Part shown: piece by piece, positions 17,320 to 23,520 of the stretch
Layout: each line of letters begins with the position of its first letter
Numbering within the stretch: the stretch's first letter is position 1
Origin: Nitrospirota bacterium
Lineage (GTDB): Bacteria > Nitrospirota > Thermodesulfovibrionia > Thermodesulfovibrionales > SM23-35
Reading direction: 5' to 3'
Assembly (NCBI GenBank): GCA_014859105.1
Contig: JACUUX010000025.1
Span: 1 to 36,329 of the forward strand
Length of the DNA stretch: 36,329 nucleotides
Made by a program: the position numbers and the translations under genes
The notes under the pieces: model-generated
What the model was told of the DNA's origin: nothing
The model's database searches: none
The model's input: only the letters and a program-made list of their open reading frames with translations

Positions 17320-19032
17320 ATGAGGCAGAACCCGGGACAAAGAGCAAAGGGCAAAGAGAGGGCTTATGTATTGCTGATAGCTCTGTGCTCTGTGCTCTAT
17401 ATCCTGTGCTCTGCTGTAGCCTCTTATGCCGCTGATAATCCGCTGGAAAATTTAAGGGACGAGACGGTCTCCTATTTCAAACCGATGACGGGAAAGATAA
17501 TTAAGGCAGAAGGAAATAAGGTAGTAATCAACCTCGGTGCAAAAGATTCTGTAAAGCAAGGTATGAGGTTTAACATACTCATAGAAGAAGCACCTTTTAG
17601 GCATCCTGTTACAAAAGAACCTTTAGGCCATGTAGAATTATTAAAAGGAAAACTCGAGATAAGGGAAATAAATTCCGATTCATCTGTAGGTGAAGTAATT
17701 CAAGGGGAGGCAAAAGAGGGGTATAAGGTTAGGATATCAGAAATCAGGGTAAATCTTATATTCTGCCAATCATCTGCTATAGACTGGTATTTAGCCGAAT
17801 CATACTACAGAAGCCTCAAAGAAACAGGAAGATATAATATGATTGATACATGGCTTGAGACAGATGACCCCCGAGTGGTTGTTGAAGAGGCGAGAAAACG
17901 TGATGCGGATGTAGCCCTTTTACTGACAGCTAGAGTCACAGATTCTGATACTTATCTAAAACAGAGACTTTTCTGGGTGGCAGATGGTATTAAGTTTTTC
18001 GAAAAGGACGTAATAATCGATGCTACACTCACAAAAGAACTGAGATTCGGAGAAGAGTATTTTTCACCGGGTAGAGAAGAGGCACTGATGAAGATAGATT
18101 TACCCGGCGGAGCAAGGCTTATCGCAATGGGAGACATAGACGGAGATAAAAAACAGGAGATTATTATTAGTACAGAAAAAGAGGTCAGGGTCTACACATC
18201 TGGCGTTGACCTGCAGCCTGCACTTGGTGGAATTAAGATAGAAACCTCAGCCGGTAATATCTGGCTCGATTCAATCGATCTTAACAGAAACGGAAAAGAT
18301 GAGGTCATAATTACATCTATGAAAGATGATGCTGTTATTTCTTATATTTATGAATTGAAAAACAGCGAATTCACTCTCCTGTACGAAGATAATTTATTCC
18401 TGAGAAGATTGGGAAATAAACTTATAGCTCAGGTCTATTCACCTGCTGAAGGATATGATGGCAAAGTGTTTGGTATAGTATACGACGGTGAGTATAAAAA
18501 AGCAGAAGAGATTAATCTCCCGCCAGGCGTCAATATATACGATTTCGTATATTTTGAAGACCCCTTAATGGGAAAACTAATACTTGCATATGATCACATG
18601 TCACTCAGCCTGTACGACGATAAAAATATAAAGATATGGAGAAGTGATACCAGTACGGGAGGTTTTCTTAAAACATTCAAAAAGTCATCCCCCACTGTTA
18701 TGCTTGATAGGGGTGAATGGATTGTCAGAGACAGGCTCTTGCTCTTAGGAAACAGAAATGCGATTTTCGTCAAAAGGATTCCTTTGTTAGAGATGGTAAA
18801 GGGGCTTGGATACAAGAATTCCCAGATTAAAACCCTGTGGTGGAATGGACTTTCTATGGAAGAAAGTGTTTTAATAGATAATATAAAAGGATCTGTCCTT
18901 GATTATACAATTGAAGGTGACAAGATGTTTGTCCTGACAGCCCCCCTGTTCGGTATAAAACCCGGTAATATATTAAAAGGGGAAAATCCTTTGGGAACAA
19001 GGCTATATATATATTCTATTAAAGGGATATAA
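17320..19032 (+). CDS. Secreted protein with FlgT-C-like and FG-GAP repeat regions
   Basis: A 570-aa exported protein with no assigned function. A signal peptide (about 1-38, SAVASYA-AD) leads to a small beta domain (about 55-90, KIIKAEGNKVVINLGAKDSVKQGMRFNI) like the C-terminal domain of flagellar FlgT and related envelope proteins. The middle (about 140-250) contains the helical segment YYRSLKETGRYNMID. From about 255 to 340 there are FG-GAP-like calcium loops, MGDIDGDKKQEIIIS and IDLNRNGKDEVIITS, suggesting a partial beta-propeller that continues to the C-terminus. Oddly, its signal-peptide region is encoded by 7-bp repeats (see 17338-17414). GAAGGAAGG lies 8 nt before the ATG. It is probably periplasmic or surface-located. 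Confidence 0.8.
   Translation: MRQNPGQRAKGKERAYVLLIALCSVLYILCSAVASYAADNPLENLRDETVSYFKPMTGKIIKAEGNKVVINLGAKDSVKQGMRFNILIEEAPFRHPVTKEPLGHVELLKGKLEIREINSDSSVGEVIQGEAKEGYKVRISEIRVNLIFCQSSAIDWYLAESYYRSLKETGRYNMIDTWLETDDPRVVVEEARKRDADVALLLTARVTDSDTYLKQRLFWVADGIKFFEKDVIIDATLTKELRFGEEYFSPGREEALMKIDLPGGARLIAMGDIDGDKKQEIIISTEKEVRVYTSGVDLQPALGGIKIETSAGNIWLDSIDLNRNGKDEVIITSMKDDAVISYIYELKNSEFTLLYEDNLFLRRLGNKLIAQVYSPAEGYDGKVFGIVYDGEYKKAEEINLPPGVNIYDFVYFEDPLMGKLILAYDHMSLSLYDDKNIKIWRSDTSTGGFLKTFKKSSPTVMLDRGEWIVRDRLLLLGNRNAIFVKRIPLLEMVKGLGYKNSQIKTLWWNGLSMEESVLIDNIKGSVLDYTIEGDKMFVLTAPLFGIKPGNILKGENPLGTRLYIYSIKGI
17338..17414. repeat. Inverted 7-bp repeat arrays inside a coding region
   Basis: Three units of CAAAGAG/CAAAGGG (17338-17358) are followed by a 21-bp spacer and five units of GCTCTGT-like heptamers (17380-17414). 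The second array is nearly the reverse complement of the first: 15 of 18 positions pair. The arrays encode residues 7-13 and 21-32 of the FG-GAP protein, its signal peptide core. Unit length 7 is not a multiple of 3, so gain or loss of a unit would shift the frame. Confidence 0.75.
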
Positions 19033-23020: not shown

Positions 23021-23460
23021 TGAAACCTGCAGCCTTAAAAACTCAGGTCTCCTCTGGAGGAGTCATATTCAGAAGAAACAGAGATATTATAGAAATAGCA
23101 ATGATATCGTTGAAAGGGGGCTCTGTATGGTGCCTTCCAAAGGGTGTCATTGATAAAGGAGAAAGTGCAGAGGAGACAGCACTGAGGGAAGTCAAGGAAG
23201 AGACAGGGCTTAAGGGCAGGATAATAGAAAGACTGGGGAAAATAACATACTGGTATTATTTAAAAGAAGAGAATGTAAAATATAAAAAAACAGTTCATTT
23301 TTTTCTGATGGAATATGAAAGTGGTGATATCTCAAATCATGACTGGGAAGTGGACAGCGTTTCATGGTTCCCAATAAATGAAGCAATAAAAAAGGCCATA
23401 TATAAGGGAGAAAAGGAAATGATGGAGAAGGCAAAAAAGAGACTAACAAATAGTCATTAG
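23020..23460 (+). CDS. Nudix hydrolase
   Basis: A 146-aa pyrophosphohydrolase of the Nudix family. The Nudix box G42-x5-E48-x7-R56EVKEETGL is complete, so it should bind magnesium and cleave a nucleoside diphosphate linked to another group. The short length and KGGSVWCLPKGVIDKGE context resemble diadenosine polyphosphate hydrolases of the MutT/Ap4A type, but the substrate is not certain. I begin it at 23020, where ATG overlaps the rseP stop by 1 bp; the open frame extends upstream into rseP. The last three codons and stop lie in a 7-bp repeat array. Confidence 0.93.
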   Translation: MKPAALKTQVSSGGVIFRRNRDIIEIAMISLKGGSVWCLPKGVIDKGESAEETALREVKEETGLKGRIIERLGKITYWYYLKEENVKYKKTVHFFLMEYESGDISNHDWEVDSVSWFPINEAIKKAIYKGEKEMMEKAKKRLTNSH

Positions 23461-23520
23461 TCAGTGGTCATTAGTCAATGATTTTTTTACTAATGACTAT
23501 TGACCAATGACTAATGACTT
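23452..23520. repeat. Inverted 7-bp repeat arrays after the Nudix gene
   Basis: Four AGTCATT-like heptamers (23452-23479) are followed by a T7-containing spacer (23480-23488) and four ACTAATG-like heptamers (23489-23516). The right array is the approximate reverse complement of the left, so the transcript could fold into a hairpin with a stem of about 30 bp. The architecture is the same as at 17338-17414 with different unit sequence. The array also supplies the end of the Nudix reading frame. Confidence 0.8.

Follow-up and report, generated by a model that had tools for sequence, protein, structure and literature searches.

Opposed tandem heptanucleotide arrays of a dispersed class probably encode a predicted signal peptide in a Nitrospirota bacterium

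Dispersed tandem heptanucleotides (heptads), palindromes within coding DNA and one leader partly derived from a MITE are already known from other organisms. In Geobacter metallireducens, paired heptanucleotide and octanucleotide sites occur in multiple copies inside and between genes (PMC2700814). As in the Nitrospirota genomes studied here, its tandem heptads stand at many places, some of them as opposite-strand pairs with variable spacing (PMC2700814). Each Geobacter class, however, is described as having one fixed consensus and was proposed to bind a regulator, and the portion of that account available to us mentions neither signal peptides nor a change of unit at fixed sites, whereas predicted signal peptides and unit change were both found here (PMC2700814). 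The GGGAATC heptads of Xanthomonas and Nostoc are likewise dispersed and often form inverted pairs (convergent in those genera), and most are reported from the same place in two species (PMC4692102). Their units are described as G-rich, quadruplex-forming and the same in both species (PMC4692102). The units in our genomes are not G-rich (AAAAGTT, ACAGGAT and GCTCTGT do not fit the G-rich G-quadruplex heptad GGGNATC), change between congeners and are often protein-coding. Marine Beggiatoaceae also carry abundant heptad sets, of the unit TAACTGA, many of them just 5' of start codons (PMC4679880). Unlike the arrays described below, these are reported as a single dominant unit in direct orientation and almost wholly intergenic, and the term "signal peptide" is absent from the text of that paper (PMC4679880).

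Other comparable systems share features without sharing the heptad period. Rickettsia palindromic elements and bacterial MITEs are, like the elements here, small inverted repeats in frame within protein genes, and a review describes the predicted signal peptide of Yersinia YPO1552 as partly MITE-derived (PMC2229807). Those elements are described as copies of one sequence of 100-200 bp (PMC2229807), whereas the copies here share just period 7 and opposed arms rather than one sequence, and one orthologous leader has been spelled out repeatedly in different units. Nematomorph mitochondria have coding inverted repeats in which the complement of a hydrophobic stretch encodes hydrophilic residues; in the accessible part of that report these are long, perfect organelle palindromes without a heptad period or signal peptides (PMC6649704), unlike the arrays here. 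The DNA uptake sequence dialects of the Neisseriaceae are dispersed motifs particular to each species; some form dyad pairs, and stop codons restrict where they can lie within genes, as with our arrays. They differ in being a single short motif with a known receptor, ComP, and, as far as the consulted text describes them, in having no tandem arrays (PMC3630211). A literature search conducted mostly outside subscription journals found no earlier description of signal peptides written in heptads or of one unit replacing another at a fixed site.

The window, the whole stretch of 36,329 nucleotides that was analysed, contains a gene for an FG-GAP-like protein of 570 residues that begins with an ATG at 17320 (Table 1). 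Pfam matches to FG-GAP_3 (E 1.8e-5) and FlgT_C (E 1.4e-4) both narrowly missed the curated cut-off. Two opposed heptad arms follow right behind the start codon. The left arm reads CAAAGAG CAAAGGG CAAAGAG and its codons 7-13 translate as QRAKGKE; the right arm reads GCTCTGT GCTCTGT GCTCTAT ATCCTGT GCTCTGC and its codons 21-32 translate as ALCSVLYILCSA. The sequence-only reading had described residues 7-13 and 21-32 as encoded by heptamer arrays that are almost reverse complements, and this was confirmed by reading of the DNA and by Tandem Repeats Finder, which returned period 7 for both arms; AGAGCAA and AGAGCAC agree at 6 of 7 positions. Its count of five heptamers in the right arm was generous because the arrays are short and imperfect: the arms amount to about 2.7 perfect units, with run scores of 9 and 12 and a degenerate fourth unit in the right arm.

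Table 1. Coordinates of the heptad elements and associated features in the window.
Feature	Position	Strand	Basis
FG-GAP / FlgT_C-like exported protein gene, 570 aa (P0001)	17320..19032	+	ORF, translation, Pfam, matches in relatives
Predicted signal peptide MRQNPGQRAKGKERAYVLLIALCSVLYILCSAVASYAAD, first 39 codons	17320..17436	+	reading and simple hydropathy rule
Left arm, 3 x CAAAGAG-type heptads, residues 7-13, basic n-region	17338..17358	+	
Inter-arm spacer, 21 nt, residues 14-20	17359..17379	+	
Right arm, 5 x GCTCTGT-type heptads, residues 21-32, hydrophobic h-region	17380..17414	+	
Second inverted heptad element, TAGTCAT arm / ACTAATG arm, mostly intergenic	23451..23519	.	Tandem Repeats Finder and pair scan

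By reading and a simple hydropathy rule, the leader has the parts expected of a Sec signal peptide, namely a basic n-region, a hydrophobic h-region and a small-X-small motif before the mature part. The N-terminal 10-residue segment of highest hydropathy overlaps the right arm, and cleavage would likely occur near ASYA/AD. We consider it probable that two opposed tandem arrays from a dispersed heptad class were co-opted here as a predicted Sec-type signal peptide.

The same arms could matter at the RNA level if a 5' mRNA hairpin, a fold that the sequence-only reading had also predicted, controlled translation in cis and the peptide were a by-product. The 5' end of the window mRNA does fold (-44.8 kcal/mol, z -2.43 against 200 shuffles, or z -1.37 for a slightly different stretch), and the orthologues L003 and L073 reached z near -4. 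The fold is not conserved, however: mean z was -0.28 in 20 heptad-bearing orthologues compared with +0.16 in 40 without heptads, and 2 of the 20 fell below -2. Moreover, the two arms come from different unit families in several orthologues, where the heptads of the n-region (AAAGTCA in L004, AGGCAGA in L098 and AGTCAGA in L079) belong to another family than those of the h-region. A hairpin can thus be granted to this locus, but a regulatory one as the reason for the arrays is very improbable.

The protein was matched in 58 of the 61 genomes searched, and the named relatives are Nitrospirota MAGs, many of them labelled Thermodesulfovibrionales or Nitrospiraceae. N-terminal period-7 arrays (score >=8) were present at 15 of 45 named loci, as against at most 2 of the 45 for any of periods 5, 6, 8, 9 and 10; these 45 were drawn from 79 named loci, with L080, L087 and L100-L131 omitted as partial or distant and L077, which has N in its leader, scored as without heptads. 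A deduplicated set that included further genomes (60 orthologues, with L077 omitted and 13 near-duplicates removed) had 20 members with N-terminal heptads and at least nine changes on the tree, which was built by a quick method with the leader columns included. The heptads write the leader with different units in different orthologues: GCTCTRT in the window, L003 and L055; TTCACTR in L004, L006, L098, L018, L061, L016 and L073; TCTGTTA in L067 and L071; TGTTCTG in L099; TTACTGC in L026; and TGTCTGG in L011. L079, whose mature protein nearly duplicates that of L018 and which was removed for this reason, has TATTCTG as its leader unit.

Period-7 arrays, called by an autocorrelation scan, are not confined to this gene. 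A 315 kb sample of the window's genome contained 8 runs with a score >=11, the right arm among them, and an order-1 Markov copy contained 0; in the same sample, the other periods from 4 to 15 gave 0-3 runs each, except period 14, a harmonic of 7, which gave 6. Larger samples had 4.9 period-7 runs per 100 kb in the window's genome (G000) and 19.8 and 16.5 in G032 and G043, two congeners of each other, compared with 1.8, 3.9 and 3.1, respectively, for the next-best period (4-12). The inverted share of neighbouring run pairs was 5 of 14 in G000, 23 of 27 in G032, 20 of 21 in G043 and 9 of 22 at the named loci; at other periods in the first sample, there were 0 inverted pairs at periods 5, 6 and 9-11 and one at period 8. 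The window itself holds a second opposed pair, longer and cleaner than that of the leader, which lies between a nucleotidyltransferase gene and a NUDIX gene, the end of the latter running 10 bases into it. Since period-7 runs are enriched and a second element lies in the window, the leader element is one member of a dispersed class. The search for similar arrays suggested by the sequence-only reading therefore succeeded at the level of the class, but a second copy of the window's exact unit was not found in its genome (<=3 mismatches over 22 bases).

A given heptad family turns up repeatedly within a genome, and congeners use different ones: G032 has AAAAGTT and its relatives, G043 has ACAGGAT and its relatives. 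Several unrelated families coexist within one genome, and the units inside one array vary freely. Array density in the G032 sample was 72.8 per 100 kb in intergenic DNA, 12.4 in the first 120 nt of ORFs and 9.9 in ORF bodies. Gene starts are thus barely richer in arrays than gene bodies in G032, which counts against our explanation.

Comparison of close relatives showed that text is replaced at single sites between genomes that are 91-96% identical. L069 and L079 share 94.4% identity over 3.4 kb upstream of the leader and 96.4% over 4.4 kb downstream, whereas the DNA between the end of the preceding gene and the cleavage region is unalignable and built from different heptads. L016 and L017, which belong to one genus, likewise have different heptads in the leader. 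When 160 kb of G032 was compared with 260 kb of G043 (about 91% identical), 35 of the 37 G032 elements were anchored by both flanks; the G043 counterpart was a different heptad family at 17 sites, nothing above the threshold at 16 (at least one of these "empty" sites contains a period-8 array) and the same text at 2. The flanks were mostly 80-97% identical while the site text had changed wholesale, and the families of G032 (AAAAGTT, AACTCTT, AAAAGTG and others) overlapped little with those of G043 (ACAGGAT, ATCATGC, AAGATAC and others). Array sites common to both congeners numbered 10 of 21 in coding DNA, compared with 9 of 333 random control positions (p 3e-9), and 5 of 14 in intergenic DNA, compared with 8 of 151 (p 0.002). 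Leaders in general do not diverge that fast, because heptad-free signal peptides, taken as controls, kept a median N-terminal identity of 0.93 between G032 and G043 (n=16). A signal peptide can thus be exchanged as a block between genomes whose flanks are 94-96% identical, with the mature protein hardly altered.

Plain local slippage of 7-nt units in tolerant DNA, with nothing moving between sites, would fit the tolerant nature of the array sites (leaders, loops and intergenic DNA), and heptad over-representation has been reported for many genomes (PMC4679880). Slippage does not yield inverted pairing, however, and it is at odds with families that recur genome-wide and differ between congeners and with wholesale text change between such similar flanks; we consider it unlikely. 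Under the exaptation of a dispersed heptad class, replacement would draw on a genome-specific pool of arrays and proceed by insertion or by ectopic conversion; repeated insertion at the same tolerant sites and array conversion would both be compatible with the replacements. No target-site duplication was noticed by eye at clean empty sites (the MurE site, G032 compared with G043). Octad arrays (GGTGAATC type) also occur beside the heptads of G043 in similar sites, for example in the gap orthologous to G032:C17:152472-152502. The G043 counterparts of G032:C17:15387, 50742 and 61738 have a different palindrome (GCTCGCCTCAGGCGAGTCGCCGAGGAGA type) nested in or beside the heptad arrays.

The length difference between G032 and G043 was divisible by three at 19 of the 21 coding sites and at 5 of the 14 intergenic sites, so arrays within genes are translated and their reading frame is maintained. 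Frame keeping bears directly on the proposal of the sequence-only reading that the gene is a phase-variable contingency locus, in which slippage by one heptad would shift the frame and switch the FG-GAP protein on or off. The unit length, which is no multiple of 3, and the position of the arrays directly after the start codon would suit such switching, as would the long near-perfect arrays of relatives, for example the 120-nt GCTCTAT array at L328, although that one is intergenic. The few imperfect units of the window do not form a long homogeneous tract, however, the frame was kept at nearly all coding sites, and L067 and L071 retain the same TCTGTTA-type array with the unit number unchanged. 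No off-allele was encountered in a set with one genome per species, and the protein had a match in nearly all genomes searched. The proposal is not borne out, and we regard phase variation as extremely improbable.

Heptads also write the leaders of other secreted proteins. Among the best 30 DacA loci, from 30 of the 47 genomes with a match, 18 had leaders with heptads of varied units, and no other period exceeded 2 of 30; DacA, MurD and MurE are names assigned by reading of the sequence. The DacA leader is MKTKLRVKSLELKVKKRIFFILFFSLFTFHFQLSTCLADEI in G032 and MKQSSVRYKKVFLFIVVSLFAVHCSLFTVSADEI in G043, and in the window's own genome it is written in TCATCGG heptads. Elsewhere in that genome, heptad leaders were present in a TonB-receptor-like protein, an LptE-like lipoprotein and several genes of L147, again named by sequence reading. 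L147 (G000:C100:80001-100000) is heptad-dense, with four predicted exported proteins that have N-terminal heptads, and at L192:14726-16596 in G043, adjacent pilin-like proteins (GFSLIEI-like motif) have heptad-written leaders. The other suggestion of the sequence-only reading, a mobile repeat domesticated as a signal peptide, fared better than phase variation, in that a dispersed class does build the leaders of other secreted proteins; mobility itself we infer. Domestication of repeats as signal peptides is supported as a recurrent process in this Nitrospirota group, and it represents a concrete, repeated route from repeat DNA to a functional protein part.

Arrays were not limited to leaders. 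Heptads were present in 16 of 29 MurD orthologues (L262-L291; 30 loci minus L283, which has no ORF), and 47 of the 49 arrays lay at four fixed sites with lineage-dependent units. At one of these sites, loop length is about constant throughout (for example, SEKLKVKSEK compared with GNRQWAIGNR), so the text there seems to have been overwritten rather than simply added. Like Rickettsia-type elements, the MurD arrays and the 19 of 21 frame-keeping coding sites lie in frame inside conserved genes.

Placement of the arrays within genes was evaluated with signal peptides called by hydropathy and reading. In the window's genome, 7 of 10 genes with N-terminal heptads were signal-peptide-like, compared with 118 of 529 overall (p 0.0015), and 6 of 11 were so in G032 (p 0.028); the G043 sample showed no enrichment (2 of 10, p 1). 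A gene-blind search with bare DNA patterns across 200 genomes of the class detected TTCACTA-type arrays in 44 genomes and GCTCTRT-type arrays in 42, while the backward control patterns were found in 4 and 0 genomes, respectively. One locus from each of 30 of the matching genomes was classed per family, and position was taken as the distance to the most upstream start. The hydrophobic strand, where coding, lay within 60 codons of that start in 21 of 25 cases for TTCACTA-type arrays and 7 of 9 for GCTCTRT-type arrays. The combined 28 of 34 contrasts with 441 of 1310 random sense positions (p 1e-8), which were drawn from the same array-centred loci so that their 34% is not a genome-wide rate, and with 3 of 13 for the coding hydrophilic strand (p 3e-4). 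TTCACTA, whose other strand contains TAG, was never coding on that strand in the gene-blind sample. The genes encountered, by sequence reading, included those of TolB-, LolA-, LptA-, BtuF- and CbiM-like proteins, DacA and the window protein. The hydrophobic strand is thus found near N-termini, where the heptad-written peptides would act as signal peptides, although its placement may in part arise because other positions do not tolerate it.

The coding logic of a heptad suggests how such placement could arise. Since 7 and 3 are coprime, each of the three frames of a strand reads a tandem heptad as the same cyclic heptapeptide; an array therefore fits any frame, and the junction alone must total a multiple of three. 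The left arm, purine-rich in most families, encodes residues that are hydrophilic and often basic; its approximate reverse complement, the pyrimidine-rich right arm, encodes a peptide rich in Leu, Phe, Cys and Ile. An element read through on either strand would then give a hydrophilic followed by a hydrophobic peptide, which is the order from n-region to h-region. An opposed repeat pair would in this manner encode what a signal peptide requires. Outside the window's genome, 51 of 52 inverted pairs had the purine-rich arm on the left; inside it 1 of 5 did, so the rule is not universal. Mean hydropathy of the translated arms was -0.67 on the left and +0.71 on the right, and shuffled arms gave nearly equal values (-0.62 and +0.52), indicating that base composition, not the heptad as such, explains the contrast. 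The heptad family would be swappable while the gene keeps working, because selection would hold frame and hydropathy, not letters.

Two further explanations concern what moves or maintains the arrays. The elements are small hairpins, and Y1_Tnp genes were detected in 48 of 61 genomes, that of the window included, as would be expected if a REP-associated (Y1, RAYT-like) transposase mobilized such hairpins. Heptad-rich G043, however, is without Y1_Tnp, and period-7 runs numbered 4.3 per 100 kb around 30 Y1 loci compared with 16.3 in other loci of the same genomes. The Y1 transposase was rejected as the mover since it is absent from G043 and its genes are not flanked by heptads; transposition by such an enzyme is a highly unlikely source of the arrays. 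Alternatively, the arrays may be species-specific recognition marks for a DNA-binding or uptake protein, which coding sites merely tolerate. Many sites per genome, inverted pairs and genome-specific families at shared sites are consistent with marks of this type, and the opposite-strand heptad and octad pairs of Geobacter metallireducens were interpreted by their authors as sites of a global regulator (PMC2700814). A recognition protein is harder to reconcile with unrelated families that coexist in one genome and with units that vary freely within an array, and we consider recognition marks unlikely.

More tentatively, the exapted leader could be one outcome of a genome-wide rewriting that keeps fixed sites (leaders, protein loops and intergenic gaps) stocked with opposed arrays and from time to time exchanges these for another family specific to the genome. 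The agent would be array conversion or a hitherto undescribed enzyme able to write or copy 7-nt units. Were this rewriting, possible though not favoured, to operate, export signals would be rewritten wholesale, not letter by letter. The old puzzle of heptad abundance in bacterial genomes is now testable because congeners with different families at the same sites exist.

Another coding palindrome, with a peptide like NPPLPPFSKGG (CCCCCCTT...AAGGGGGG), recurs in leaders and protein loops at L132, L141, L146, L147 (in the window's own genome), L003/L053 and L267. The intergenic array at L328 (G201:C65), almost perfect over its length, was the best spot met for real copy-number change.
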